DNA of 64,000 bases from Apostichopus japonicus (taxonomy: Eukaryota > Echinodermata > Holothuroidea > Aspidochirotida > Stichopodidae). The notes under the pieces were generated by a model. The model worked only from the letters and a program-made list of their open reading frames with translations. It was not told the DNA's origin and ran no database searches. The stretch covers positions 5,506,001-5,570,000 of the forward strand of contig NC_092561.1 of NCBI RefSeq assembly GCF_037975245.1, given 5' to 3'. Shown here piece after piece: positions 4,030 through 50,300 of the stretch (position 1 is its first letter; every line of letters begins with the position of its first letter). A program made the translations under genes and the position numbers.

Positions 4030-4965
4030 GTGAGTTATACTTGCATTTTTATATTAAGGAAGATGAGTTTCATTGTAATTGAACATGAAAGCTAATTAGA
4101 ATTACACCTTTTACTTTTAGATAGGTACCGTATTTTATTTTTATTAGAAGTTCGAAATTGTATATGAAAGTATGGATATAAATATGTAGGACTGCATATT
4201 ATTTTGGTTCATGATTCCAGAAATTCGAAAGTAAGCGAAATTTAAAAAAAAATTAAAAAAAATAAGTAAAAAGGCTACTCACATTGCTCCTATCGTGAAA
4301 TAGAATGATTTGAAAGTAAGTATTATACGAAAGAAATATTACATAAAATTGTACCAGCGTTTCTAAGATTGATTAATCAGTGGCGCATAGGACCCTTAGT
4401 TATAGATCTCATTATAGCCTAACTATTGGAAAGTGTTTTTTTTTTCAGTCAGCCTAGGCCTATACCGAATCGGTAAAGTGAGATCTGTTTCGATTCTGCA
4501 GTAGGATTCAAACGGATGACTTTAATTAGGCCAAAAATTAATATCCATAATTGATAGATGTTGTTGACCGTTAAAAACACTGCTAACCGTCCAGGTTGTA
4601 TTTTTATTTCCCACTTTTTTTTTTTTTTTAGAAATAGCCTTAAAACAGCTGAGGTTAATCAATTAAAGTGTAGTTTAATTAAATCATATTGAGTCATTTT
4701 ATGCAACTTACAATTTAACTCAAAGGGAAAATAAGACTTGTATGACACCAAATGATATATTTACAATGTATTAGATTGAAGGAGTATTCGGGATGACATG
4801 AGCTGGTGGTTAATTAGATTTTAATAATTAAAATGTATTAATGTGATTGGTAACACTTACATTAATTGGTGTCAGGCGGCGTAGGAAAATTCCAACAACA
4901 AACATTCAACATTCAAACTTGCATTTGTTTTGATTTTATTTCTCAGGATTTTATGAGTGTCCGCC

Positions 4966-6711
4966 ATGTTAGTTGCAGGATCGCTCAGTCCTAGGACTGA
5001 CTCCCGTTTGGATCCAGCAACAAAGTCAACGCCAAGATTATGTAAACTGACCTTTGGCCTCAACTCCAACGAACCTTATGTTGACGAAGCTGACCAAGAA
5101 GTATTTGTTATTTCAAATTCGCGTTCTTCTTTGAAACAACCGTACGAAAGTTCCCCTAAAAGGCGAACGAGCATTTCTTTACCGGAAATATCTAGCACCC
5201 TCTTTAATGCAACCGACATTGAATCAATCAGTTCAGAATCTCCAGAATTAATCGAATTACCTGTTGTGGACAAATCTTTAAATTCTATAAACGCACCGGA
5301 AAGGGTAGATATTTTACAGGAATTTCAGGACCGTGAAGAGGTCAAAGATCAGCGTAAACATGGTGCACCAAGCATTAGAAGTTTGGATACGTTTATCGCA
5401 GACAGTGATGACAACAGTCAAGATATGACTATAATTGATTTAGTGTCATACGCTAATAATCCTCCAAGAAATAGGTCGACCAGACAGAAATACAGAAATG
5501 TTAGATCAGCAGTTCAAAGTAGGGACTTAAGTCAACACGTCTTGAAGGAAAAATCTCATTCAGCCAGACGACCACGTCGTGAAAAGGAAGAAGTTTATTT
5601 GAAATGTAGATTTCACGAACGACCGTGCTCAAGAATTGGCAGTTTCTGGCGAGAGGAAGATTCTAATGATTTATCACGTGAATGCTGCGACGTGTTAGGA
5701 CCGAGAAGCTGTCGCGAGTGTTTTCGAATATCAGAACGACTGGCATCAAAGTCTAGTAACGAAGATACTTTCCCTGACATCGAAGCAACCCCTTCTGAAT
5801 TTTTTACTTTGGATTTAGCTCAAAGAATGTTTCCAGATATGTCTACGGTAGAACTGCTGCATCATTTAAAAGAGGGCAATATTGCTACGGAGGTATTACA
5901 GAAACACCAACTCGAATCCTATGCTGAACTGCGTCGAATTCGAATCGCAAGAGAAAATTCACGAAAGATTCGCGAACGGATTAATATGTATAAAGCTCCC
6001 GATGACGATAATTTTTTCAAGAACTTTAATGATCTGAAGCTACAAATGGTCTTGAAAAAGAAAGTCACTGCCGGTGCGGTCACAGTATTGGAACCAGTGC
6101 GCCCTCTCTCATCGCGAGCGCCTCCTCCTGAAATAGAAATGATACCTGTAGCAACCGACGAAAGGGAAAATCCCGCCAATTATTTCGGACCGCCAATTAT
6201 GACGCAAGAAGAGATTATGCGTCAAAAGAGTCAACCTCGTTTCTATGCAGGTGAAAGTAGTGACTACAAGTTACCACAGACTATGGAAATGACAAATGTT
6301 CTTAGAGAATCAAACAAGGCTATGAAAGATCTCAATTCTACGGCGTCTTTGAAGTTTGGTGTTATCGAAGAAGAGGAAGAGGAGGAGGAGGAATACCAAG
6401 AGGACGCCAAGGAATTCTATGATTTGACGTCAGCAGATATCAGCGCGAAAAACAAACTATCGTCTGCATCCATTAGCTTTTACAAACAAACTACTGAGGC
6501 GATAGGAGGCGCCATAGAGAATGCACCACATATGTATAGTTCATGTGGAACCGATTATAGAGGGCGCTTTTTCGAGGGAGATGACATTCTAGATACGGAC
6601 GATTTCTTCAGCGCAGAGGCACAGAATTTAGATTCTAGCTCTGAGGAAAACTCAAGTTCTTCGGATGATGACAAAGACAACGTGTCACATGACCAAGAGT
6701 CTTCGAGGTGA
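4966..6711 (+). CDS. Uncharacterised 581-residue disordered acidic protein
   Basis: A single long exon encodes 581 residues; I recognise no family. The start is the ATG at 4966 (context CCGCCATG), just downstream of an acceptor ending at 4946. An out-of-frame ATG at 4953 opens a short overlapping upstream frame. The N-terminal third is Ser/Thr/Pro-rich and looks disordered. A middle segment (about residues 210-260) carries a cluster of Cys and His residues (CRFHERPC, ECCDVLG, CRECF) that could bind metal. Residues about 285-350 are Leu/Arg/Lys-rich and probably helical. The C-terminus is strongly acidic, with a run of nine Glu near residue 470 and Ser/Asp/Glu repeats at the end. There is no signal peptide or membrane segment, so a nuclear or cytosolic protein is likely. 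A polyadenylation signal follows at 6918. Confidence 0.8.
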   Translation: MLVAGSLSPRTDSRLDPATKSTPRLCKLTFGLNSNEPYVDEADQEVFVISNSRSSLKQPYESSPKRRTSISLPEISSTLFNATDIESISSESPELIELPVVDKSLNSINAPERVDILQEFQDREEVKDQRKHGAPSIRSLDTFIADSDDNSQDMTIIDLVSYANNPPRNRSTRQKYRNVRSAVQSRDLSQHVLKEKSHSARRPRREKEEVYLKCRFHERPCSRIGSFWREEDSNDLSRECCDVLGPRSCRECFRISERLASKSSNEDTFPDIEATPSEFFTLDLAQRMFPDMSTVELLHHLKEGNIATEVLQKHQLESYAELRRIRIARENSRKIRERINMYKAPDDDNFFKNFNDLKLQMVLKKKVTAGAVTVLEPVRPLSSRAPPPEIEMIPVATDERENPANYFGPPIMTQEEIMRQKSQPRFYAGESSDYKLPQTMEMTNVLRESNKAMKDLNSTASLKFGVIEEEEEEEEEYQEDAKEFYDLTSADISAKNKLSSASISFYKQTTEAIGGAIENAPHMYSSCGTDYRGRFFEGDDILDTDDFFSAEAQNLDSSSEENSSSSDDDKDNVSHDQESSR

Positions 6712-10675: not shown

Positions 10676-11056
10676 GTTGCGCTTTTGACACGGACCGCCC
10701 AGATATACGATCTCACAAATATCCGCACGGAAATCAAACAAATTAACAAACAAGAAGCGATGACCACTGCATCAAGTAACTGGCACGTCACCCCGCCCCC
10801 ACCGGCAAATGGTCAAATGAAACGATCCTATACAAACCACGTACAGTCGGTCGGCCCGCCCGCAGGCTCGCCATGCTTGCTCCCACCTCTAAACTGTTGA
10901 TAATTCGTTTCATCTCATTTTTTGGTTTCAGACGGGAGTTCCGGTCTCTTGGAAGAGAGTGTCTTACTTACAGACAAGAAGCAGTTCCAGACCACCAATC
11001 AGCATCATCTCACCAATCGCTGACGTCACAATTATGCATATGCATTAGCGGAAATT

Positions 11057-12595
11057 ATGACTCCGAGTCGGATCCAACGTAATGGCGACCATTCTTACAA
11101 GGGACAGGAACTCTTGCAAAATTTACAAGTAGCAAGACTTTCGCCAAGAAACACGCCTTCTTTGGCTATTACGCGATCACGTGGAAAAACTCTGATTAAT
11201 TGTTCGGAACAAAGTGTACATGGTAAAGACGTAACATCTTTAAAGGCGCCGTCAAGACTTCAAAATGGAGAAACTAAAATCATTATAAGAAAACCAGTTC
11301 CACCAATTCAATCTCTGAGTAGTGATTGGACAAATCACATGACGCCACGTCAGCACACGTCATCTACTATAGGAGCTAATGGTACGTCATCATGTTACTT
11401 ATATCCCAACATGAGACAAGACATTCGAAGAAACGGTTTTTGGAAAACGGTGACCAGACCAACTCCAGGAGAACTTAGTTTGAAATATCGAAACAAGAGG
11501 AAGGACGGTTGCGATGAGTCACAAGACTGCATTTATAAACGCAATGCGAAAGATCCGGATGAAATTGATACTAGCTTCGTTTTGAACTTACTTGAGAATA
11601 ACACAACCAGAGAGGACATTGGTGAGAAACATTTAAAGTGTCAGAGAGATGAAACACAGACGTCTTTAAGAAACTTTTCGAATGAGTCCTATAAACCAAA
11701 TACTTCCTCTCAAAATCAAAGAAAACACAGTATTCCCCTTGAGGCACGGAAAACATCAAATGCTTCTGTTACAGACCACGTGCACAGGTTGAATGTTTTG
11801 CGTTCCCAGGACGACAGCAGAACGATAGATGCAACTTCTTCTCCCGCCAGAACGGAAACAGAAAACAGCAAAATCGAAAAGGAAAATAACAGTGCACTAC
11901 AGAGATTTGCCTCTCGTTTAAATAGTCCTACATCTTCGCACATCCATAGTCATGTGTTTTGCGCAGAGTGTATCCCGGATGTAGAGTCATCGCGCTTACT
12001 CGGTGCGCTCGATTCATACCGACGTGAAGACAGTCTGGAAAAAAGTAACCAATCACTGAAGAGTAATGTAAATATCGCACATGCGCAAAATGTAAAAACG
12101 ACCGAAAATTACGTCACCTTCAAATATAGAAACAGAAGACTAACTAAGTCACCTCCGGAAATTCTTGTCAAAATTGAAGATGGTTCCGATCACTTAAAAA
12201 CTGTGGATATTCCTGGAAAAATAGATCTACCTTCCGTTAAAGATCAATGCAAGGAACCCGAAGTTTCATTAAAATTATCTAATAAGCAGGATAAAGTTTT
12301 AACGAATGGGCAGAATGATGGAAGAAATCACGAAGAAGATTTGGACACTGGAAGTAGTCCCCGTTATCTTACTTTCTCTACGGCAATAGGAGCCGTTAGG
12401 AAACCCCCGGTGCCACATGATCGTCACTACGGGAATTCGCCGGTAGTAAAAGATGAGAAAACACGCGGTGGAAGGGCTAGGGTAGTTAACGTAATGACTC
12501 ACGGGAAAGGTGCCTTGATTATACAGCAGCACAAAGATCTCAAATCCGCAAAACTGGATGTGTTTCTACCACAAGTTAGAATGGGTCATGATTGA
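11057..12595 (+). CDS. Uncharacterised 512-residue disordered basic protein
   Basis: A single long exon encodes 512 residues; I recognise no family. The start ATG at 11057 has A at -3 and is the first in frame after the in-frame TGA at 11021. The sequence is rich in Ser, Asn, Lys, Arg and Thr with many polar repeats and looks disordered throughout. A short CAEC motif lies near residue 302. The most ordered-looking segment is the C-terminus, where YLTFSTAIGAVRKPPVP is followed by RARVVNVMTHGKGALIIQQ. There is no signal peptide, membrane segment or known catalytic motif. Like its upstream neighbour it has a TATATAAG promoter, a spliced leader exon and one large coding exon, which suggests similar regulation. 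The two proteins are not obviously alike in sequence. Confidence 0.8.
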   Translation: MTPSRIQRNGDHSYKGQELLQNLQVARLSPRNTPSLAITRSRGKTLINCSEQSVHGKDVTSLKAPSRLQNGETKIIIRKPVPPIQSLSSDWTNHMTPRQHTSSTIGANGTSSCYLYPNMRQDIRRNGFWKTVTRPTPGELSLKYRNKRKDGCDESQDCIYKRNAKDPDEIDTSFVLNLLENNTTREDIGEKHLKCQRDETQTSLRNFSNESYKPNTSSQNQRKHSIPLEARKTSNASVTDHVHRLNVLRSQDDSRTIDATSSPARTETENSKIEKENNSALQRFASRLNSPTSSHIHSHVFCAECIPDVESSRLLGALDSYRREDSLEKSNQSLKSNVNIAHAQNVKTTENYVTFKYRNRRLTKSPPEILVKIEDGSDHLKTVDIPGKIDLPSVKDQCKEPEVSLKLSNKQDKVLTNGQNDGRNHEEDLDTGSSPRYLTFSTAIGAVRKPPVPHDRHYGNSPVVKDEKTRGGRARVVNVMTHGKGALIIQQHKDLKSAKLDVFLPQVRMGHD

Positions 12596-16889: not shown

Positions 16890-19800
16890 TCACTTTCTCA
16901 TTGTTGATCTTGGTGCGCACGGTCGTCCAAGGATACACCTGTGAAAGTTTGGCAGTTTTTTGAATGCTTCAATTTGAGCTTTATCTGTGGAAGTAGAAAG
17001 AAAGATATACAGATTAACATTGATTATTAGGTAGCTTTTAAACCCTTTAAAGTGTTCTCATCTGTATTTTCCTGACAGAGGAAGTCTTGTTTCCTTACCA
17101 AATAATTAAAGCAGTATCTAGTAGAAATAATCTCTCCTGTGGGACGCATTAGGTATCCTCTAAATAGCATGATAATAGCTCATTTGCATGCTGGCAGCTT
17201 CATTTAGACCTATATTTATATACAAAGGGCATTAATGAAGCAAATTCAACTATGGATGCCATTTAATCAGGGATGAGCCTGAGATAAAAAAAAAAATCAC
17301 GGAACTTTGCAAAAATTGCGGTATAGGCTCCGGTTTGCATATGCTACAGTGTGTTAGGATAATAGTTCTTGTCCCCCAGGTAGAAAAGAAATTACGGATA
17401 TTCCGCGAATTCGCAGGAAAAGCTAATGCCTGTTTAATTTAACTTAAGTTTTGTAACCCATTATCCAAAACTTCAATACTTACCCTTGCTTTAATACTTA
17501 CATGGAATATGCTTTGTTGTCTGCTCAGTTATAATGAGGTGAAAGTGTTTCTCCACCAACTCTTCGTCATTTTTTGTCCACTTGGTGTATTTTCTTTCTG
17601 CAAAAAAACAAAAAACATATAAAACCTAATCTTGTCTGCTTTAAATATCAGTACTGACAGCAATTGGATAGGAAACAAATAATTAAATGAGAAAAGAACT
17701 CTGGAAGCAGTTTGGCAAAGTGGACCTTGTGAGGAACCAGGAAGAGCTAAGGTTGAAACTGAATGAATGTTTTGGTTGAAACAATCCATTGATCAATACA
17801 CTAACTGGATAGGAGACAAAATAGTGAAGTTTTTGAAGCCACAGAGATGCCATCTTTACTCCTCCCAAAGGTTTATACATTACACCAAATTGGAGAGGTC
17901 AAATTCTTCATAATTTCCTACAGATTCAGCCTAGATCCATTATTACACAGGCTAGCCAATATGTTTGGCCAAACAGAACAGCCTAATTTCTTAAGCTCCA
18001 ACTGATATACCAGTATATCCTAGGCCTCATATTTGCATTAACAGTTAAGTTAGGTAACACCTCAACTTAATCAGCCGATGATCTTGTCGTGCGACTACCT
18101 TTTGGTGTTCAAGTCTCTCGTCTTATTCTCCAGATAACTTTTGGGCCTTAATTGAGTTGGCCTTAATTAAGTGGGCCTTAATTGAGTGGGCCTTAATTGA
18201 GTGGGCTAGCAGCTACACAGCTTACTAAAGTTCTGAGTGCCCACCAAAGTTCAGATTTACACATAGTTCGATACCTGGCCATTGTCGTTATCACCATTTC
18301 AACTCAAAATGCAGCTTTAAGTGACAGAGACCACCAGAAAAGTTTTCAAAACTGATCAAACAGTACATAAATGTATGGAGTTCTAGACTTCTCGTGTCCT
18401 TTTGGGGTAATACAAATGACTGATGCAGAACTTGGTAGCTTCAAACTGTTCTTATTGGACTTGACACCTATCCAGTTAATATGTCAATCAGTCAATCACA
18501 TTCCATTTGATCTGTGTGTATCTGTCGAGACACCCCTGTTATGTATTAATACTGAAATAAAACATTAGCCTGGGTTGAAAACAGTTGTGTTCCTTAAAGC
18601 ACTACATGCCATTTTGCCATGTCCCATATCATATATCTATACTCACTCTTTTTGGTTTCTGCTTTCACTTCTTCTGAACACTTCCTTTTCTTAGCTGCAT
18701 GAAATAAAAAGTAATCATAATAATAATCAGCAGTTATATTTACGACGCTTAAGCGACTACAAATGTGGGAGAAACCCACAAGGGCTTATGGATTACAACT
18801 GACACGTCCGGTGGCTTCCAATTCAACATTTTAACTCAAATTCGAAATGTTTTGAAGTTCGAGAGGTCAATTCAGATGGGAAAACCGTAGATTGCTCGTG
18901 GATGAAAAATCCACCTTACTATGACCCGGTCAGGTATTGAACCAGTAACCTCCCAATCGCTAAGCCTCATTGCTTCAAAGATCATGTGAAGTTTCTTTGA
19001 AGGCATTTCAAACTTTACACACACAGGTCACAAAAATGTTGAACCCTAACAATTCTTACGTTTGAATCAAAACATTTGCGTCAAAATGGTTGGGTTTGTA
19101 ATTTTGAAAACTTTGATGACTTTTCATCGATACTGAGGATACAAATGATGACATTAATAGTAATTAAATTATAGATTATTCAAACCTGCATCAATCTGTT
19201 GTGGCTGCCCAACTTCAACGACTTCCTTAACAGCAGGTGGTGCCTCGTCTATATTCTCGCTGACGTCGGTCGAGTATCCCATGTGTTTAAGGTACGACGC
19301 TCGTTCAGACACCGGTACATCCATTGATGCATATAAAGTACTGATGTGATGTCGGTTTCTTGTAGCAGTCAGTCTGGTTTTGCTCGACACCTCTGCATCA
19401 TGACATATGCCACTAAGTGCATGCCAACCCATGACATGATTAGTTGATGATTGGATGCGAGGAAACACACATCCATTGCTCGCCAACACACCTGCTGAAG
19501 ATCTTGCTGCCGAGCTTGTCAGAACCTCAATTGCCGGTATGCAATCATCTGGGAAAAGGACAGGAACAAGACGGTTGTTTCCTCTGACTGTCTGGTAAGT
19601 GACTTTCAACTTTGTGAGCATGTGTTCCTCAATTGGATCAGAAATTGCATCAGCTTGTGTCTCGTCAATCCAAGCATCTGCCATGGCCTCCTTCCATTCT
19701 TCAATGGACAGCCTACATGGTTCACCACCATGTTTAGCATTAAATAAAGTCAGCCTCGCTACCACCACGTCACGTAACTTTTCGAAGTTGTAAGAGTCCC

Positions 19801-22800
19801 AAACAATGACATCATCTTCCATCATGGTGGTTATCACTGACGATATGTAGTTCCGCAGCTTCTTAACAGCTTCCTCGAGGGGTAAGGCTGCTGGATTTCT
19901 GAGATTGGCTTGGCTGTTTTTGTTTCCCTGGTATTTTGCATCATCAAATAAATAATTGCGGTTTAGTTCGAGAGTGGCAACAAACTGGTCTATCTCTTCT
20001 GCACATGCATCTTGTCCTTCAACCAAATGGGTGGCCTTTACTATTTTACAGGATTTCTTCAACAAGTAGTAGAGTGCAATCTTCAGGCCTGACTTGAGTT
20101 CATTACTTTCTCCTGAATATGATGAAATTGCCTCTGTCAAACAGTTAAAGTTTCCTCTCTGAAACATGTCTCTTGCAGTACCACTTTCCAGGGGTCCTGT
20201 GCCATGTATCTCATGTTGCTCTTTGAAGCACCGGTACAAAGAAGCCAGCCGCCTCATATCTGACATGACATGTTTTCGAACTTCGGTCTTCTTATCCTCT
20301 TTGTTTCTGCTTGCATCCAACAATCTCTTTCCTATATCAACAATGAAAGGATCACTGCGACAGACTTCACCGACTTCATCCTCTTTGAATCGACGGAGTA
20401 TATCACGCTGAAATTCTGAGATATTCTGATTCACTCTACACTCAGGCGTGACCAAGGATACAGGGACTGAGCATGCTTGCAAACAGCTATCTCCTTGACA
20501 AATGGCCTTGTGTCTTCCGAAGTATCTAGTGGCATAAAACCCCTTACACAAGCCACAGATGACCAAAGGGTTTTCAGTGGCAGCCCTCCTTTGCGTTTCA
20601 TATTTTGGGTTGTCGACTTTCATCTGTAATATGTTGGCTTGTAGGATTCCTTCTTTCCTCATCAAGGCAAAAGCTTCCACTCTTTCCTTTTTGGGTAGTT
20701 CAAGGGCCCTTTTAACCTGTTCTTCATCCTTATGGACAAGCTTGAGGTGTCTAGTGAGTGTCTCTTTGAAATACTTCCCACAAAATGGACACATTCTTAA
20801 AGGTTTCTTGTACCTTGGTGGTTGTTTCGATTTACCAGCAATGATGTTTGCCTCTTTGTTAATAGTCTTTGAAGAAGATGCTTCAGACAGCTGTTGGAAG
20901 ACCTCACTACTGTCCCTATTTTCTTCAGGGTAATGTGTAAGGTCCTTGGCTTCTTCCTGAAAACCATTAGGATATTTAATGGATCAAATGTTCTTAAGAG
21001 ACATGTCATTCCAATGTTTGATTGATTATCATATTTATCACAATGAGAATGTCAACACTAATTTACTACTACTAAACCATTAAAGGTTTGACATAACATA
21101 CCTTGATACAGATAGAAAAGACGAAAGTAAAGTCATGACGCACCAACACATTAAAGGTTCAAACAGTACAGTTCACTCCCATTCACATAACATGTCACAA
21201 ACTCTAAAGGAATTTATGTAAGGCATGGTGCTTACAATTACCTCCCATATCAAATATAACTTTGTTCAATTTTCCCTTCTTGAAAATATCATATTTCCAC
21301 AATATTCACGTTTTGACCTCTACTGACCCCACAGACCTTTGACCTCAAACTAAAAGGCTTCTTATGTGCAATATATGGCATTCATATATTGTACAAATCA
21401 TGGTATCTTTCCATGTTTAAGTTACTGAGATATCATGTTTACAAACTGGCCAACACACCCACACACAACCCACCAACACAAACAATAAATCAGTTTGATT
21501 CTATGTCTCCCTAATATATAAACATCTCAATATTATTGGTCTGATTGCATGTCTACCAATTGTGCCTTATGGAAGTGTGTGTGTACATAGATACTGTAGG
21601 ATGCACAGTCAGAGGACACAGTCCAGGTTGGACAATCTGGCCAGATACCTTACCTAGTACTTATAATAGCAAGAGCACTGTACAGTAGCCTTATTTTGAT
21701 ATCCCACCTCCTCAGCTGGTCTTACATTAATTAATCATTAATCAAGTCTTCTTACCATAGAAGCCATGGTTTTTCAAAGAAGCTTACTGGCACTGGTCTA
21801 ACTGATTGATGGTCTTTAATATATAACACGCTTACATTTCATTAAAATCTTCTATACTATGAAAAAAACCTTAGAAAAAAGACATTTCATACATACCGAC
21901 TGTTCTGAGGAAGATTCTTGTGGAACTTTGTTTGTTTCCATCTGTATCTGCTTCTAGAAAGAGTTGCAGAGTTTGATGGTATAGTAAATTCTTGTCAAAT
22001 TTGTCAGATAACAACTTAGTATTTTAATACACTAATACCAAATAGTGCAGATCTCCCTACAGAGATTTTATTGAGTTGTTTTGCAACATGAAATAATGTA
22101 CACATTGGTTAATTGCATATATTCTTATCAATATATTATTAATACAGTTAAAATTCAAAATGTATGTTTACATCAGTGCACAAGTTTTCATCACAATGTT
22201 TCATTTTAAAGTATCTCTATGTCTTCAATATAAGTATCATTTTCTATCTAATTCAAAAGGTTTTCTAAAATAGCAACTGAGTTATAATGCAAGTAACATT
22301 TCTTAAAGTCAGTTTGATTCTATATCTACCTAATGTAGCCAACCAAAGTGTATATAGCTGAGTTGTACAGCATTAGTACAATATATTTTCTGTGTCTCCT
22401 ATATACATCTATTTATCACATACATACATATATCATTTGTGTTAAATAGAGAAAATTCCAAGTGTAAGCATTGTTCCACTAGAAGTGAAATCAGGTATCA
22501 TTTTCTAGCAAAATCAACAACTTTACCAAAATAGCAACTAGGTTATACAAGGAAAGTTTCTTACAAATCAGTTTGATTATACTGTATGTCTCCCTAATGT
22601 AGCTATCCAAAAGTGTATACATAGAGCGAGTTTCTACAGCATTAGTACGATATATTACTGTCTCCCAAATATATCAAATTACCACAAACTATATATATGT
22701 GATTTGTGTTAGAAAATTAGAAAAGAGAGTGAAAGATTTGTACCGTCTATGGTTCTCATGTCTAAAACAAATGTTCCAATAGCATACCCTCTTCCTCCGT

Positions 22801-25509
22801 GGTATATCACTGACACCATGGTAACACCTCAGCTTGCTTCCCTCTTCTATATCTTTCAATGCAAAGAGGCACAGTTTTGGCACTCGACCTTCCACAGTAA
22901 CAATCCTCATCTTGCAGTTTGCCAAGTTTTTACCATCATTAACCATTCGTCCATTTCCACAAGAATCTGTAGCATCGATGCTTCAAAAATGGATAAACAA
23001 ATAATGGGTCAGTTAAGATTATTTAAGGCATCTCTGCTCCTGAGGGCATGAAAATCCACAATGGCGATATTATGAGACAAGATGATGGAATCGGATGTTG
23101 AAATTATAAGGTATATATAGTTGCGGTTGAACAGCACAGTGACCTTTCGATTTTGTTATTTATATTATACTATTTACTGAATTTTGTACCGGTCGATCAG
23201 AAGCCCGAGTGACGGTCAGTTATAAGAACTTTTTACTTGGAGTACTGGTCGGCAAACTTTAGTGCTGCCAAGTCGGACCGGCCTAGCTACAACACTGGTT
23301 TGTATGTGTCGGTATGCTACTGAAAAAAAAAACAATTTTAACTGAGTATGAGGATGAACAACTTTCAATTACAATACTGTCTACATTGAGTAGACTGCAA
23401 TATTGTTCTAATACAATTTAAATGTAAAACAAGTTAAATAACTTGTATAAATTTTACAACTCACCATTTTGTTTTTCCTTTATGACAAAAGAAATAAAGG
23501 AAACTTCCTACTTCTTCTGGATAATTGGCTTCTCTATGTTCCCCTTCTTCTTGAGAAATTAGTTCCCCTCGATATTCCAAAAGAAAGTCTCCCTTCTTGA
23601 ACCGTTTCTCACAAATGACACCGGAGCCTGGGTAAAAAAAATGAAAAAAAAAATTATGCTTCAAAGACAAGACTAACCAGAATGCCAGTACTTAATACTT
23701 ATAGTGATTTCTTGCCGTATAAGGTGTCAACATCCATGCTCTGACAGATAGTATGTGTTCTGTTTTGTGTTCCAACTGTATTTTGTGGTATGCAGTATTC
23801 TGGTCATGATAAGGTGTACGTTTTAAGTGATACATGTATCCAAGGCTGACATCAACACTGCACAATTTTAGCAAAGTCAGTGTGTTGATTAATTTTGTTA
23901 TGTAAAGTATGAGTACCAACACACTAGACCAGGGGTTCTCTAACTGGGGTGCATGAACCCCCAGGGGGTGCGTGAGTCCATCTCAGGGGGTTCGTGAGAC
24001 GTTTCTGAATTTCAAAACTGTAGTATCTTCGACTACAACAAACATAAATGAAATTGTACATGGTAAAGTGGGTTTACTCTGCTTTATTACTTGAAAAAAA
24101 AACCACTTTAATGTAGTGCTTAAAACTATAACGTTGGCCGACTTACGTGGTCATAAATGTATATCAAATTGGCTATAAATTACAACAAACATTAAAGTAC
24201 TTTTTGTTGAACCAAATCTGATATATCTGATATATCATATAATTTAGTAATGTACAAAAGTTGTACCTATCGACAAACTCTACAATATTACACTATGAAC
24301 TTGATCTTTTACGAAGCACTGTTATGCATATTATAGTATAAGAATGACTCAGATCGTGTCTCGAAAAGTTGGGGGTTCGTGGACAACTCTGACATCCACA
24401 GGGGGTTCCTGGGGGGGGGGTAAAGTTAGGGAAACCCTGCACTAGACTATAATTCTTACTCCTATGAACAGGGACTTGTTAGCATCACAACCAACTGAAA
24501 GCAAAGTTTACATATGGGTTCAATGTGTAAGTCTTACTCATTAAAGTAGGCCACATGATTTCACATTTCATGGAAAATAATTCTTTAATTCAGTGCTCAG
24601 AAGTCAAGTGTTCAGAGATTGTTTAGCAGCTTGGGGTTTATGATTTTTTGTTGCCTGTAATATATTTGAAGCATTGCTAGTATACAGTAAGAGGTGTAAT
24701 CTACAAAGTTCTATAAATACTCTACAGTACATTTCGGCAGTAATGCTAGGTGCTGGGCTGAAAATATAGGAAAAAACATCAAAGGAAACATCTTAAATAT
24801 TGGCCATTATGAGCTTGATATAACTGATATATAAAGGGAAGAATAGTGAGGGTTTGGACTAATACGAATGATTACTGCACAGAAAATTTGTTTCTTTAAT
24901 TTCCCAGAATTAATGCAAATCATATAGATATCATTTCATTAGTATATATGTGACAGGTAAGCCTAAGCACAGCAGCCACTGTACATCATTGCTTTGTTTT
25001 ATAGGAGGCTAATCAAAATATACAGACTACAATTACACTAATGCAAATAAACCTGTTTACATCATTAATTGGTGACTTTACCAAGCCAAAACTTTGAAGT
25101 TTCTTGCACCAAATAAATGTAGTAACCTTAGGCCACTATATAGCAGAACCAGTTGTCTTTGCCATGTACTGCAGTTATAGTTGTTTCATTTCTCTTGCAT
25201 CAATGGCAAGGATTCAAAAGTACAGTAATACATGTAATGTAATGTCACCAGCATAGATAACTTCTCCCATGCTCAATTATCTAGGAAAGTTCATAGTTTG
25301 TATAAAACAAAACCGATCAAATGTGACATCTGCTGTTCTGTGCACCTTTCAAATAATTTTTAATTCTTCACAAAGATGAACAAAATTAAAATTGTACCTA
25401 TGAACTCATCTATGAATCCCAATCGGAATCCTTCAATGTCTTCGCCTTTAAGACAGGCATCGACAGCTCTCTCCTCCTCTGATTTTGATGTTCTTCTCCT
25501 TCGACTCAT
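16890..25509 (-). CDS. SET-domain / zinc-finger / tyrosine-recombinase-like protein
   Basis: Eight exons joined by matching splice phase: 25398-25509, 23465-23627, 22788-22980, 21897-21953, 19186-20956, 18647-18694, 17502-17597, 16890-16984 (844 aa). Residues ~30-155 form a KMT5A-like SET domain (KGDFLLEYRGEL, SFLYFF, CIDAT, CLFALKDI). The usual NHS-type substrate-cofactor motif reads MVND, and the YDYG-like site reads CYHG, so methyltransferase activity is doubtful. Residues 231-250 are a C2H2 finger and 309-328 a C2HC finger. Residues ~525-755 resemble a tyrosine recombinase core (box-I-like LFNAKHGGEP, GNNRLVPVLFP, RHHISTL, KHMGYS), with His, Tyr and Asp where Arg, His and Tyr are expected. 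A KKRK signal precedes a C-terminal SANT-like basic segment (KYTKWTKNDEELVEKHF). Exon structure is my reconstruction. The protein is probably nuclear; function unknown. Confidence 0.7.
18142..18206. repeat. Short tandem repeat, ~17-bp unit
   Basis: Four near-copies of GGGCCTTAATTGAGTT in an intron of the SET gene. Confidence 0.8.
18712..18990 (-). mobile_element. tRNA-derived SINE, family S1, minus strand
   Basis: Matches the full S1 copy at 56941-57236 on the opposite strand. It has the B-box region (GGTTCAATACCTGACCGGGT on the minus strand), the body with ATGGGTTTCTCCC-type words and the 3' end ACTGCTGATTATTATTATG. It lies in the same orientation as the SET gene. Its 3' end is about 18 bases before exon 6 (starts 18694), so it supplies the sequence next to the acceptor. 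Confidence 0.75.
22235..22735. repeat. Tandem duplication, ~261-bp unit, two copies
   Basis: The unit starts TATCATTTTCTA and contains AGTTTGATT, CCTAATGTAGC, CAGCATTAGTAC and TTTGTGTTA words in the same order in both copies. A further partial copy is near 21490-21510. It lies in the intron after SET exon 3, ending about 50 bases from the inferred donor. Confidence 0.7.
23930..24439. mobile_element. hAT-Charlie-like non-autonomous element
   Basis: A perfect 8-bp duplication CACTAGAC (23922-23929, 24440-24447) flanks inverted ends: CAGGGGTTCTCTAACTGGGG on the left and CAGGGTTTCCCTAACTTTAC on the other strand at the right. CAGGGGTTCTC.AAC is the familiar start of Charlie-type hAT elements. It lies in intron 1 of the SET gene, with no coding frame. 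Confidence 0.85.
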
Positions 25510-28172: not shown

Positions 28173-28339
28173 GCCTTGTGTTGAACAATGTTCCTCTGCT
28201 GGCATGTTAAGTTGAACAAAGCTAATCTAAGTAAAGAGTGCCATAACATTAGGGAGACAGTTACTTGTCTCCGTTTTGTAATTATCCCCGTAACGTAAAA
28301 AAAAAAAAATGGTGCGCCTTCGCACCATTCAACCCCGTT

Positions 28340-28700
28340 TGGGCTCAACATTCAGGAAGGACATGACTAAATTTTCTTCTGTCCCCCTCCTTCTCGCCTT
28401 GCCCCCCCCCCCCCCACAATCACTCCTCTCCTCATAGCTACACTCCATCCTTTTTTCTCCACACCTTTCTGTCTTTGTCCTTCTCCAGTTTATTCCCTAC
28501 CCCCTTCCTTAGTCCTCTCTTTGTCTCTCCGCTGTTTATATCTCCCACCTCCATCTCCTCTTCCCTGGTGGTTTCTTTCTAGCTTTCTTCTCTCCATCCC
28601 TTGTCTACTAATCCCCTTACATCTATCTCTTTGTGTTCACCATGCTCATTAACCTGTCTGTAACCTGTGTGTGTTTTTCCCCTCTAGCTGTTACAGTTAC
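28340..28700. repeat. Pyrimidine-rich tract upstream of the hammerhead-like motif
   Basis: About 350 bases of C/T-rich sequence with many CTCTCC and TTCTCC words. Such tracts occur next to the hammerhead in Penelope-like retroelement ends, so this may be part of the same remnant. Confidence 0.4.
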
Positions 28701-45212: not shown

Positions 45213-45520
45213 GGGATGTCTTCATGAATTAAAGAGTGTCATCTGGGCATAAATTACCACTTTTTCATGGCAGTAAGGATGTCTTCAGTGTATAAAGGAT
45301 GTCTTCACAGCACAAAGGATGTCCTCAGGGTATAAAGGGAGTCTTCATGGCAGAACGTGAAGGGTGTCATTGGGGTACAAATTGGTGTCGTCATGGCAGG
45401 AAGGGTGTCCTCAGGGTAAGAAAGGGGTGTTCATGGCAAAAGAATGTCCTCAGGGTTCAAAGGATGTCTTCATAGCAGAAAAGGATGTCCTTGCAGTACA
45501 AAGGGTGTCTTCAGAGTAGT
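45213..45520. repeat. Degenerate ~20-bp tandem repeat at the SINE tail
   Basis: Repeated AAAGGATGTCTTCAGGGTA-type units with substitutions, about 14 copies. It may have grown from the SINE's 3' tail. Confidence 0.7.
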
Positions 45521-46846
45521 AGGCTGCATAAGCTGACAGTACATTATGAGTGTCATTCAGACATCATGGTGTCCTCTAGGTATCATTTAATTAAGAAAAG
45601 AGAGCTTTCACTGATAGCATGACAGGTAAAATGAAAGTAACCCCTGTGAAAGATTTATTAGTGCTAAATGATATACAAATCTATATATATATATATATGT
45701 AAGAGTATTGGGATAAAAGAATTTTTCACAACGTGACAAAGGAAAATAAACGAAAAAGAGAAAGAACGAAAAACTTAGCAAAGCATATAAAAAGCGTACT
45801 CAAACTAAATGTCTAAAATGGAGGATGGAAAATTGGGGAGGGTGTTATTATTGCATTTTTTCTTGGGGGGGGGGGGGAAGCAAAATGAGGTCTTCAGAGG
45901 TTCTGCAAGAATTTAGTCGTCATTATCATCAACATCACTGGGTGGTTCACCGTCACCCCTCCCCATCCCTCCTGTCTCCCACTTACCACTCCCTGTGGTT
46001 GGAATCTGGAGCCTCTTCTCCATCCATTATCTTTGAATTAGTACTTTCGTTCAGGCAATTTTTTGAAATGAACATATTACCAGAGTTTCTTATAGCTGAG
46101 GTGTAGCTCTTACCACTGAACTTAATTATAGTGTACTGTTGCCATAGGGATCTCATATTTCAGATGATTAAGTGTAAAAAAAAATATATCAATGATTGCA
46201 TATATTTGACTGTAATATTACTCAACCGAAAAATACACAGTTACATACAAAATATATTAATCATGAATATTAAAAATGCATATTTATAGTATTGCATCAC
46301 ACACTCTATAAATCTACAAAATAATTTATAAATTGGCAATAGCTGATTTCAAGGAATGAGGATTTATCTCTAAAAAGTAAAAATACAACAACACTGTAAG
46401 ACATAAGTGAAATGTTAATTCTTCTACATGGAATAGTCATTTTATACTACCACTCAAACTATACTGAAGAAACAGGCTGCATCTCACTTTTATTTGCATA
46501 TATGCAAATATAATATCACCTCGATTCCCCCAAAAAAGAAGGAAAAAAGGTACCACTTCCTACCAATTTAACACCTTTACAGAAAGGTTAGCATATATTT
46601 TGTCACACTCAGTGCAATAGCAAAGCAATTGCACACTGTACAACACCCTGGTCCCTCCTCAGCCCCATCCTCTCCCTCCTTCAATATCATCTCCCTACCA
46701 CATATAAACTCCGAGAGGAAACTTGACATCCCTCATCATCATCATCATCTTCGAGCTGTATTTGATAATGGACAGCATATCACTCATCCCTAACACCATC
46801 CTTCTGCTCCACCCCCTCCAACCGTATCCTTAATTCTTTCTCTTGT

Positions 46847-47650
46847 GCTATTGATCACAGTCAACCCATAAGGTACTGCACTAGGCATTGCATCCCTACT
46901 ATAATCCCTTATGATTAATGGATGACCAATGTCAACGCAACTTTATATTTCTATATATACACACTTGCAGTTCTCTCTCTCTTGCTATTGATCACAGTCG
47001 ACCCATAAGGTACCGCACTAGGCATTGTATCCCTACTACAATCCCTTATGATTAATGGATAACCAATGTCAAAGCAAGTTTATATTACTATAAATACACA
47101 CTTGCAATTCTCTCTCTATCTTGCTATTGATCACAGTCGACCCATAAGGTACCGCACTAGGCATTGTATCCCTACTACAATCCCTTATGATTAATGGATG
47201 ACCAATGTCAAAGCAACTTTATATTTCTATATATACACACTTTCAGTTCCCTCCCTCTCTTGCTATTGATCACAGTCAACCCATAAGCTACTGTACTAGG
47301 CATTGCATCCCTACTATAATCCCTTATGATTAATGGATGACCAATGTCAAAGCAACTTTATATTTCTATATACACACTTGCAATTATCTCTCTCTTGCTA
47401 TTGATCACAGTCGACCCATAAGCTACTGTACTAGGCATTGCATCCCTACTACAATCCCTTATGATTAATGGATGACCAATGTCAAAGCAACTTTATATTT
47501 CTATATACACACTTGCAATTATCTCTCTCTTGCTATTGATCACAGTCAACACATAAGGTACTGTACTAGGCATTGCATCCCTACTACAATCCCTTATGAT
47601 TAATGGATGACCAATGTCAGAGCAACTTTATATTACTATATAATATATTA
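46847..47650. repeat. Satellite-like array, six ~137-bp units
   Basis: Units start at GCTATTGATCACAGTC (46847, 46984, 47123, 47262, 47398, 47532), 134-139 bases apart. Each contains GGTACTGCACTAGGCATTG-like, CCCTTATGATTAATGGATG and TATATTTCTATATA words followed by a CTCTCTCT run. Length changes are in the TA and CT stretches. Confidence 0.9.
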
Positions 47651-48627: not shown

Positions 48628-49541
48628 TTAGCAAACCTTTTGTAGAAAAATAATACGATTCGAGCCAATCTTCGCTGGAAAGAAAGAAAGCCATCCGACC
48701 AACGGGTGGTTAGGACTTGGTCCCGAGACTGATGGGAAGGCCATGTCACTGTGGAAATCTGCAATCACTCTAAACCCAGAGGTATAAGAAACCGCTTCTC
48801 TGAAGAGACCATTATGAGGGCCACTCTCATTGTCAATGAACAGAACAAAGGTTCCCGGAGATATTGCCCTCAAAAATGGAAATCGGAGATGAGCAGGTCG
48901 TTTGCACACGAAAGCTGATAGGGAAGATACGACTTTGGTGAGAGTCACCAGATGGGCCCTTCTTATCTTCGTTGCGACCTCGTCTGGCACGTTGCCCTCT
49001 GAGGTTAAATCGTAAGTCACGTAATCAATATTCTTAATATTCAAGTCACTCGTCCTTGCGTGCAGACTCGTCCAGGTGTCGCCCCATTCGCCGCATTTGT
49101 CGATAACTGTTCCCTGTACGTCGCTCGATATGTTCAACGTTTTCAAGAACAGAGCGAACCCTAGGATGTCAGTGGCGGGTCCGCCACCGATGGCACATAC
49201 GTCAAACGTACGGACGTACTGCCAGGAAACAAAATTTTGGGTGAACTTTGTCATCTCGACTAAGGCTGTATGCACGAGATGGCTGTGTCGCATGAGGAAG
49301 ACATAGACGTAGGCCCACCGCGTAGGACTATCACCAAAGTCCAGTCGTTCATTTGGCGTCGTCAAGTTGACATTGTAGCTGTCTACGATCCTTTTCAAGA
49401 GCTCTTTGAACGGTACGGTAACATGATTCCTTATGATGAGTGGCATGATGATGTCGCGCTCAATCTCATCCAGAAGGTGACGAAGATAGCCTGCTGACTC
49501 GTCATACCCAGGAGGTTTGACGAGGATTGGCAGTGGATGAA
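48628..49541 (-). CDS. Last exon of a SAM-dependent methyltransferase-like gene
   Basis: The exon encodes about 304 residues and ends at a stop at 48628. The open frame continues upstream past the first ATG (49446). It reaches a pyrimidine-rich acceptor CCCACCACCAG, giving an exon start at 49541, so at least one upstream exon is missing; I could not find it. CAIGGGPATDILG is a glycine-rich motif I for S-adenosylmethionine binding in a Rossmann fold. It is followed about 25 residues later by GTVIDKCGEWGDTW (acidic end of strand 2 plus an aromatic helix), and later by FVLFIDNESGP. The pattern resembles uncharacterised GGGPGTD-type methyltransferases of invertebrates and fungi. The substrate is unknown, and the Ala in place of the second Gly is a mild deviation. 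Confidence 0.7.
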
Positions 49542-50300
49542 CTGGTGGTGGGTATGGTAGGTAGCTGATGAAGAAGTACAGTACAGTTCTCGTTAATTAT
49601 AAGCGTTATCATGTTACATAAGCCTTTGTGCTGTTAACTGTAAACTAATATGTATCATCATGCCGAATGCTGTAAGCAAAATTATCTTCATTTTTCATTC
49701 ACAAAGCATGACATCCAAATGAATATGGAAATACATACTGCATATTCATATTTCTGAGTATATGTTCTGTAGTGCTTTAGAAGTGATCCTTTTTGTTTGA
49801 GTTGCACCTTTCGTTTTCGTGCAGTTTTTCGTGAACAGCAATTTGTCCATTTTTATAGCATTTAACATTTGCAAAATGGATACCAGATTTTTGGCGATTC
49901 ATTCAATCTGCAACTCTGTGGCTCGCTATGTTTTTAACAGGGCTCCACCAATTTATGATCAAGAAATGAAAAGGAAAAGAGAAAAAAAATTGTGCTCATG
50001 CAGCCTCACATTGGCCTTAGGACACACAACAACAACTCAACATGAGCTTTAAAGGATGACAAATTTACACAGAAGCTTATAGGTCTTGATATATATGTTA
50101 TAGTTTAAAAACAAATGAAACAAAGTGTGTGCTAGTAATGTTTCTGGAATGCTCCAAAGATGCTTTCTTGATAATATGAAGTTAAGAGAACATGTTATGG
50201 TTGAGTTTCTGTTTAAGAATGTGCAGTACTATAAACAATGGATTAACACTAACACATTTAGTGCTGCACTGTGGAGCTGGCACCATCATATGTGAAGCCT
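49542..50300. other. Intergenic or intron, nothing recognised
   Basis: Presumed intron or 5' flank of the methyltransferase-like gene; no further exon could be supported. Confidence 0.35.

Follow-up and report, generated by a model that had tools for sequence, protein, structure and literature searches.

Does a single gene of the holothurian Apostichopus japonicus join a SET methyltransferase domain to a tyrosine recombinase (YR), and, if so, is its product a host protein, a transposon enzyme or a relic? The question is raised by a locus in a 64,000-nucleotide stretch of contig NC_092561.1 (positions 5,506,001 to 5,570,000 of assembly GCF_037975245.1), referred to here as the window, in which a first-pass annotation had joined eight minus-strand exons without a phase break. 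The join stands, as all seven introns have GT-AG borders, the phases agree and the exons together encode 844 amino acids followed by a stop codon (Table 1). The ATG at 25509 comes directly after an acceptor, and a further upstream 5′ exon is therefore likely.

Table 1 Predicted exons of the window gene, with positions in the window.
Exon	Position	Strand	Content
1	25398..25509	-	Start codon, then the KMT5A-like pre-SET helix
2	23465..23627	-	N-terminal half of SET; counterpart in the paralogue 96% at the amino-acid level
3	22788..22980	-	C-terminal half of SET
4	21897..21953	-	Linker
5	19186..20956	-	C2H2 finger, C2HC finger and YR core
6	18647..18694	-	Basic linker
7	17502..17597	-	SANT/Myb-like basic segment (label from motif reading)
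8	16890..16984	-	Predicted C-terminus and stop codon, placed by splice and phase join only

Domains of the predicted protein and identity of its core

The N-terminal domain is a SET domain of the KMT5A type, as had been proposed. A Pfam search with the window protein gave a SET match above the Pfam cut-off (43.7 bits, E 4e-11), and the closest solved structures were those of KMT5A/SETD8 (E 4.5e-22, residues 6–147, including the pre-SET helix), the best match under a different name reaching E 1.4e-11. The SANT-like exon 7 has no Pfam match in the window protein. Its counterpart in the group A elements described below shows 45% over 31 aa (E 1e-4), or 42% (E 0.001) in the C12 copy, and matches outside group A are weak (best E 0.23–1.1).

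The core encoded by exon 5 had been likened to tyrosine recombinases of the Crypton type. In Pfam and PHROGs the window core itself has no YR match, and Pfam gives it no name. To compare the family as a whole, a profile was built from an alignment of seven diverse members, excluding the window gene and its paralogue, and was set against a reference YR profile of XerD, FimB, FimE, three prophage integrases, Cre and lambda Int. The two profiles aligned in hhalign over 137 columns with a score of 46.4, an E-value of 3.3e-5 and a probability of 72%, with the R/K/R/H/Y residues superposed (NARRGGEP on TGLRVSEL, GKGNKHLVP on GKGNKERLVP, RHRVST on LRHAFAT, MGH on LGH, and the final Y). Controls consisting of 12 column shuffles, one reversal and six unrelated proteins scored at most 21.5, with probabilities of at most 0.9%. 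The catalytic R, K, box II R, H and Y occur in this order and are invariant in the seven members.

Other comparisons gave weaker matches or none. When single recombinases were set against the family profile, XerD gave E 0.0093 and the other seven of the eight fell within the control range. One of 11 members matched Phage_integrase at E 0.0057, below its curated cut-off, and the PHROG_1 integrase at E 4.8e-4. None of the 16 matches listed in a genome-wide Phage_integrase search was a family core, the family profile found weak zinc-finger and other matches and no YR among solved structures, and a single-sequence structure model of exon 5 alone was poor (mean pLDDT 37.9). Because the genome-wide Phage_integrase search lists no family core and single recombinases match the family profile weakly, the support for a YR core comes from the profile comparison and the catalytic motifs. 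These results uphold the likeness to tyrosine recombinases, but the attribution to Cryptons was too specific: DUF3504 was unmatched in the 11 members, in a search with HMMER filters on in which 16 families matched at E up to 1, and 17–19 kb elements lying in microsatellites are unlike the animal Cryptons described in PMC3212892.

The window also contains a tandem array of 135-bp units (46832–47640, ~6 copies, 92% alike), a 322-aa minus-strand open frame (48628–49596) with the motif GGGPATDILG, methyltransferase-like by eye, and two long open frames of 584 and 523 aa (4957–6711 and 11024–12595) on the plus strand, opposite to the SET-YR gene.

Catalytic losses and coding constraint in the window pair

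A paralogue of the window gene lies 0.61 Mb away, with exons 1–5 at C1:6133891–6143798 and exon 6 at 6147043. Its exon 1 (C1:6133891–6134002) has the same splice sites as the window gene, and at the sites compared the acceptors and donors of exons 1–4 and the donor of exon 5 are all retained. In our reading of the comparison, which covers exons 1–6, exon 6 of the paralogue is in phase and one codon longer. The introns align as well, which makes the two genes segmental duplicates on one chromosome. Exon 5 of the paralogue carries the finger segment three times in frame, inside a 1021-aa open frame (C1:6140777–6143794).

The window gene and its paralogue share a set of substitutions at catalytic positions. 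In a 12-row alignment of cores, the box I arginine, the lysine, the box III histidine and the nucleophilic tyrosine are replaced in both by H, R, Y and D, respectively, and the box II arginine is retained, whereas R, K, R, H and Y are kept in the other ten of the 12 rows, several of which are near-identical pairs. The window protein thus lacks the intact catalytic residues of a tyrosine recombinase enzyme. Being common to both copies, these losses probably predate the duplication. The SET domain has changed too. NHS and YDYG are important active-site motifs of KMT5A; the window protein has neither, reading GRMVNDG in place of the KMT5A sequence GRLINHS and LRCYHG in place of LLYDYG. The ND-for-NH change is common to the four relatives from the window clade that were read (C12:33.2, C2:11.5, C6:17.7 and C17:9.1). 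All four keep DYG and the paralogue has CDYG, whereas the window copy has CYHG, so that DYG is lost in the window copy only, among the SET copies read.

Coding constraint was assessed between the window gene and the paralogue over exons 1–4 and exon 5 from base 39, the comparison in exon 5 using the final one of the three finger copies in the paralogue and leaving the two extra copies aside. These exon parts contain two indels, both of 3 bases, whereas introns 1 (in part), 3 and 4 contain 41 gaps, 35 of which are not multiples of three. The dN/dS ratio of the pair is 0.31 for SET (155 codons; range 0.14–0.84 in 500 bootstraps) and 0.52 for the core (577 codons; bootstrap range 0.34–0.87). By quarter, the core gives 0.99, 0.61, 0.35 and 0.20; in SET the last quarter stands at 1.12. 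Binomial tests against neutrality found fewer non-synonymous changes in both SET (P 0.005) and the core (P 0.004); for the C-terminal half of the core, picked post hoc after the quarters, P was 0.0005. Judged from this one paralogue pair, the coding constraint on the window gene appears only moderate.

The stretches with dN/dS near 1 are what a decaying transposon copy would give, that is, a gene that is inactive, open by chance and without host function. The missing catalytic residues, the DYG motif lost from the window copy only among those read, and a family fragment at C17:9.146 Mb that has already decayed all point the same way. Chance preservation agrees poorly, however, with homologous exon parts whose indels come in threes only beside introns with many others, with non-synonymous changes below the neutral expectation at the P values given for SET and core, with the splice sites retained in the paralogue, and with catalytic losses that are common to both copies and hence probably older than the duplication. 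We regard decay as possible but rather unlikely. The reading that we hold fairly probable is that the window gene derives from a SET-YR transposon, can no longer move or recombine DNA, and was probably co-opted. The gene combines, in this one pair, the loss of mobility and the moderate coding constraint that mark a domesticated transposon gene. The earlier suggestion of a domesticated transposon protein is partly borne out, by catalytic loss accompanied by coding constraint, whereas expression and a function in the host are presumed.

The SET-YR family and its mobile members

Two protein queries, with 78 and 82 matches that were merged where they lay on the same strand with gaps below 4 kb, gave 102 YR-core loci in the A. 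japonicus genome, a count in which core fragments more than 4 kb apart may figure twice. At least 68 of the 102 cores have a Pfam SET match on their own strand no more than 40 kb upstream, compared with two cores that have SET downstream and one that has it on the opposite strand. Random placement over 200 trials, with 30 Mb assumed for contigs without a known length, gave 0.35 SET-upstream pairs on average and never more than 3. Among core loci spanning at least 1400 bp, the fraction with SET upstream is 60 of 80. The pairing is a lower bound, as 150 of 270 SET candidates were scored; the window gene itself counted as unpaired. In copies on C3, C16 and C15 a single open frame of 951–1498 aa runs from the C-terminal half of SET through a spacer and the fingers to the core, and a copy on C11 has the same frame with one stop. 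The fusion in the window is not a lone fusion but belongs to a family of ~100 copies, and the proposed single SET–zinc finger–YR polypeptide is supported by the one-frame copies and by the SET matches upstream of the cores.

Of 110 SET matches, 29 were unpaired with any core. Two of these, L003 and L007, were looked at, and the latter (C15:21104507) is a better candidate for the host KMT5A than the window gene, which we rejected as an orthologue. In a 12-row tree the window pair forms one starred clade, nearest by path to group A, and the forks between the groups of its half of the tree are open. A scan of two group A copies with an HMM of four SETs found no SET within their 17.4 kb; as more distant members have SET, its loss in group A would be the simpler history.

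Several features of the family stand apart from these comparisons. C17, which makes up 37.2 Mb of the 671.6 Mb, carries 27 of the 102 core loci, and many of these are fragments containing stops; low recombination or sex linkage of the region might account for this. Two SET-core pairs on C16 (31.82–31.85 and 32.02–32.05 Mb) are exactly 199,200 bases apart, and on C13 a SET match recurs at a spacing of 40,027 bases (9.229, 9.269 and 9.309 Mb); these repeats are either artefacts of the assembly or large duplications, tandem or segmental. At five equal-scoring cores (C9:28.90–28.93, C13:2.75–2.78, C13:8.97–9.00, C16:31.82–31.85 and C16:32.02–32.05 Mb) the SET match is 22–31 kb upstream, a distance suggesting even larger elements or introns that differ in length. 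Between SET and the fingers at C3:10.807 and C16:29.896 Mb (L021 and L023), the spacer is an array of ~68-residue repeats (length by eye), the number of which differs between these two otherwise near-identical copies, giving frames of 951 and 1429 aa.

Comparison of 20–30 kb tiles delimited discrete element blocks. Group A is a block of ~17.4 kb found at C16:4.99, C16:31.96 and C7:17.23 Mb with unrelated flanks, and its copies share 98–99% identity over the main blocks, with lower values across internal tandem repeats. A further copy on C12 (97–99%) is interrupted by a stretch with a 1280-aa LINE-like frame, and a fifth lies at C16:44.74 Mb. Right ends of group A were found at four places in the genome and run into (TA)n at all four, as do the left ends in the three copies read (3/3); the C12 copy, absent from the four right-end places, may be without a right end. 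Group B is a block of ~18.9 kb at C15:25.15, C15:25.75 and C11:27.49 Mb, mostly 98–99% identical and bounded by (TACA)n at three of three left ends and three of three right ends. Group C (C3:10.8 and C16:29.9 Mb) has no microsatellite at its right end, so the microsatellite target rule is not general. One long gene is prominent in group A and B elements. In two comparisons of group A copy pairs, 5 synonymous changes stood against 1 and 2 non-synonymous ones, a pattern as expected, on these counts, of recent elements selected for function. On the evidence of their sequences, groups A and B are mobile elements of 17–19 kb inserted in microsatellites. No viral gene was noticed by eye among the longer frames of the elements, and a viral origin is thought unlikely, as one scan of viral contigs confirmed no relative.

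The ends of the elements carry short repeated motifs, GGRGACA and GAGGACA, which were chosen after the ends had been read. In three group A copies, GGRGACA forms clusters of 5 and 4 sites at the two ends, each within ~250 bp; there are 14–15 sites per 20-kb tile, and in one copy 9 of 14 fall in the two end clusters. Group B has six GAGGACA sites at one end and no cluster of four at the other. No motif cluster was seen in the C12 tile of group A, which stops short of the right end and is partly unreadable at the left, and group C has no GGRGACA, with GAGGACA in small interior groups of one copy only. In the window, comparison with the element tiles recognised no element ends at 12–32 kb. Motif clusters at 22393–22659, 28253–28380 and 45320–45570 were considered as ends but are weak and unconvincing, the last coinciding largely with a tandem array.

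If the family had instead spread by ordinary gene or segmental duplication of host SET-YR genes, multi-exon genes would be expected, and the window pair is indeed a segmental duplication on one chromosome, introns included. Such a history is very improbable given the sharp 17–19 kb blocks that recur at 98–99% identity on different chromosomes, between unrelated flanks and with microsatellite ends, and given the conserved YR catalytic residues. Least credible of all is that two adjacent genes, one KMT5A-like and the other coding for a YR, were wrongly joined, since an uninterrupted frame of 951–1498 aa in other copies spans the C-terminal half of SET and the core (for which reason an annotation artefact was also rejected), SET lies upstream on the same strand in 68 of 102 cores, and the paralogue retains linker exon 4 with its splice sites.

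For the co-opted transposon derivative that we favour, the following history can be proposed. The ancestor would have been the transposase of a family of large YR DNA transposons, its multi-exon gene coding for a KMT5A-type SET domain, C2H2 and C2HC fingers, a YR and, at the C-terminus, a basic segment. Relatives that are still active probably use YR strand exchange, acting on their own ends and on microsatellites, for both excision and insertion, perhaps by way of a circle; the fingers or the basic tail may bind the end motifs, and the SET part may modify histones or chromatin at the donor or target. The window copy would have lost its DNA-cleavage residues before the duplication that gave the copy at C1:6.13 Mb, its SET losing DYG, and both copies appear to have stayed coding afterwards. 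Its protein could bind DNA and chromatin without cutting, for example to control its relatives among the transposons, or sites of similar sequence. The wider proposition, that animals carry a new superfamily of large, microsatellite-homing YR transposons with their own histone-methyltransferase domain and that one member, no longer able to recombine DNA, has been retained as a chromatin protein, seems to us evenly poised between right and wrong.

Relation to known systems

Fish and other animals have KMT5A-like proteins whose C-terminal tails are similar. The window protein resembles KMT5A/SETD8, its best similarity, in the pre-SET helix and SET domain and differs from it in the ND for NH of the window clade, the DYG lost in the window copy and the fused YR. 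A study of sex determination in A. japonicus reports male-biased kmt5a-a and kmt5a-b in the candidate region (PMC9128100). Because a better host KMT5A candidate lies elsewhere (L007) and SET-YR copies are many, these two genes may be SET-YR transposon copies and not host KMT5A, which suggests caution with A. japonicus genes annotated under either name.

None of the open-access titles and abstract openings covered, a scope that excluded Repbase and most papers behind subscriptions, indicated a SET-YR transposon. The large YR-mobilised Starships resemble the family in size and enzyme, as far as the consulted descriptions go, but are fungal. For the combination of C2H2 finger, YR and insertion into simple repeats, the closest likeness in the material consulted is with endogenous nimaviruses, which carry telomere-repeat-specific YRs (PMC10871703); those enzymes sit in large viral genomes, whereas group A and B elements show one long gene.

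The closest precedents among the sources consulted are the domestication of Cryptons and SETMAR (PMC3212892, PMC8704517). Cryptons are YR-only DNA transposons of animals, and their domesticated DUF3504 copies are without most catalytic residues, a depletion like that in the window pair (PMC3212892). The SET-YR family is unlike them in its SET domain, C2H2 and C2HC fingers, length of 17–19 kb, microsatellite ends and absence of a DUF3504 match, and the terms 'SET domain', 'methyltransferase' and 'microsatellite' do not occur in the main text of PMC3212892 as available to us.

A transposon with its own histone-methyltransferase domain would make it directly testable whether mobile DNA readies or hides its own chromatin, and near-identical recent copies beside an apparently SET-less sister group offer a natural comparison. 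The transposase of Hsmar1 is a DDE enzyme. In SETMAR, a SET gene was joined to the Hsmar1 transposase, which is inactive and the DNA-binding part of which is under purifying selection, and the likeness to the window protein lies in the union of SET with a catalytically inactive transposon enzyme (PMC8704517). The differences are that the recombinase here is a YR, that the SET of the window protein is KMT5A-like and that SET is native to the gene of the mobile family, whereas in SETMAR the two were brought together (PMC8704517). A recombination-dead SET-YR chromatin protein would, if true, be the mirror image of SETMAR.
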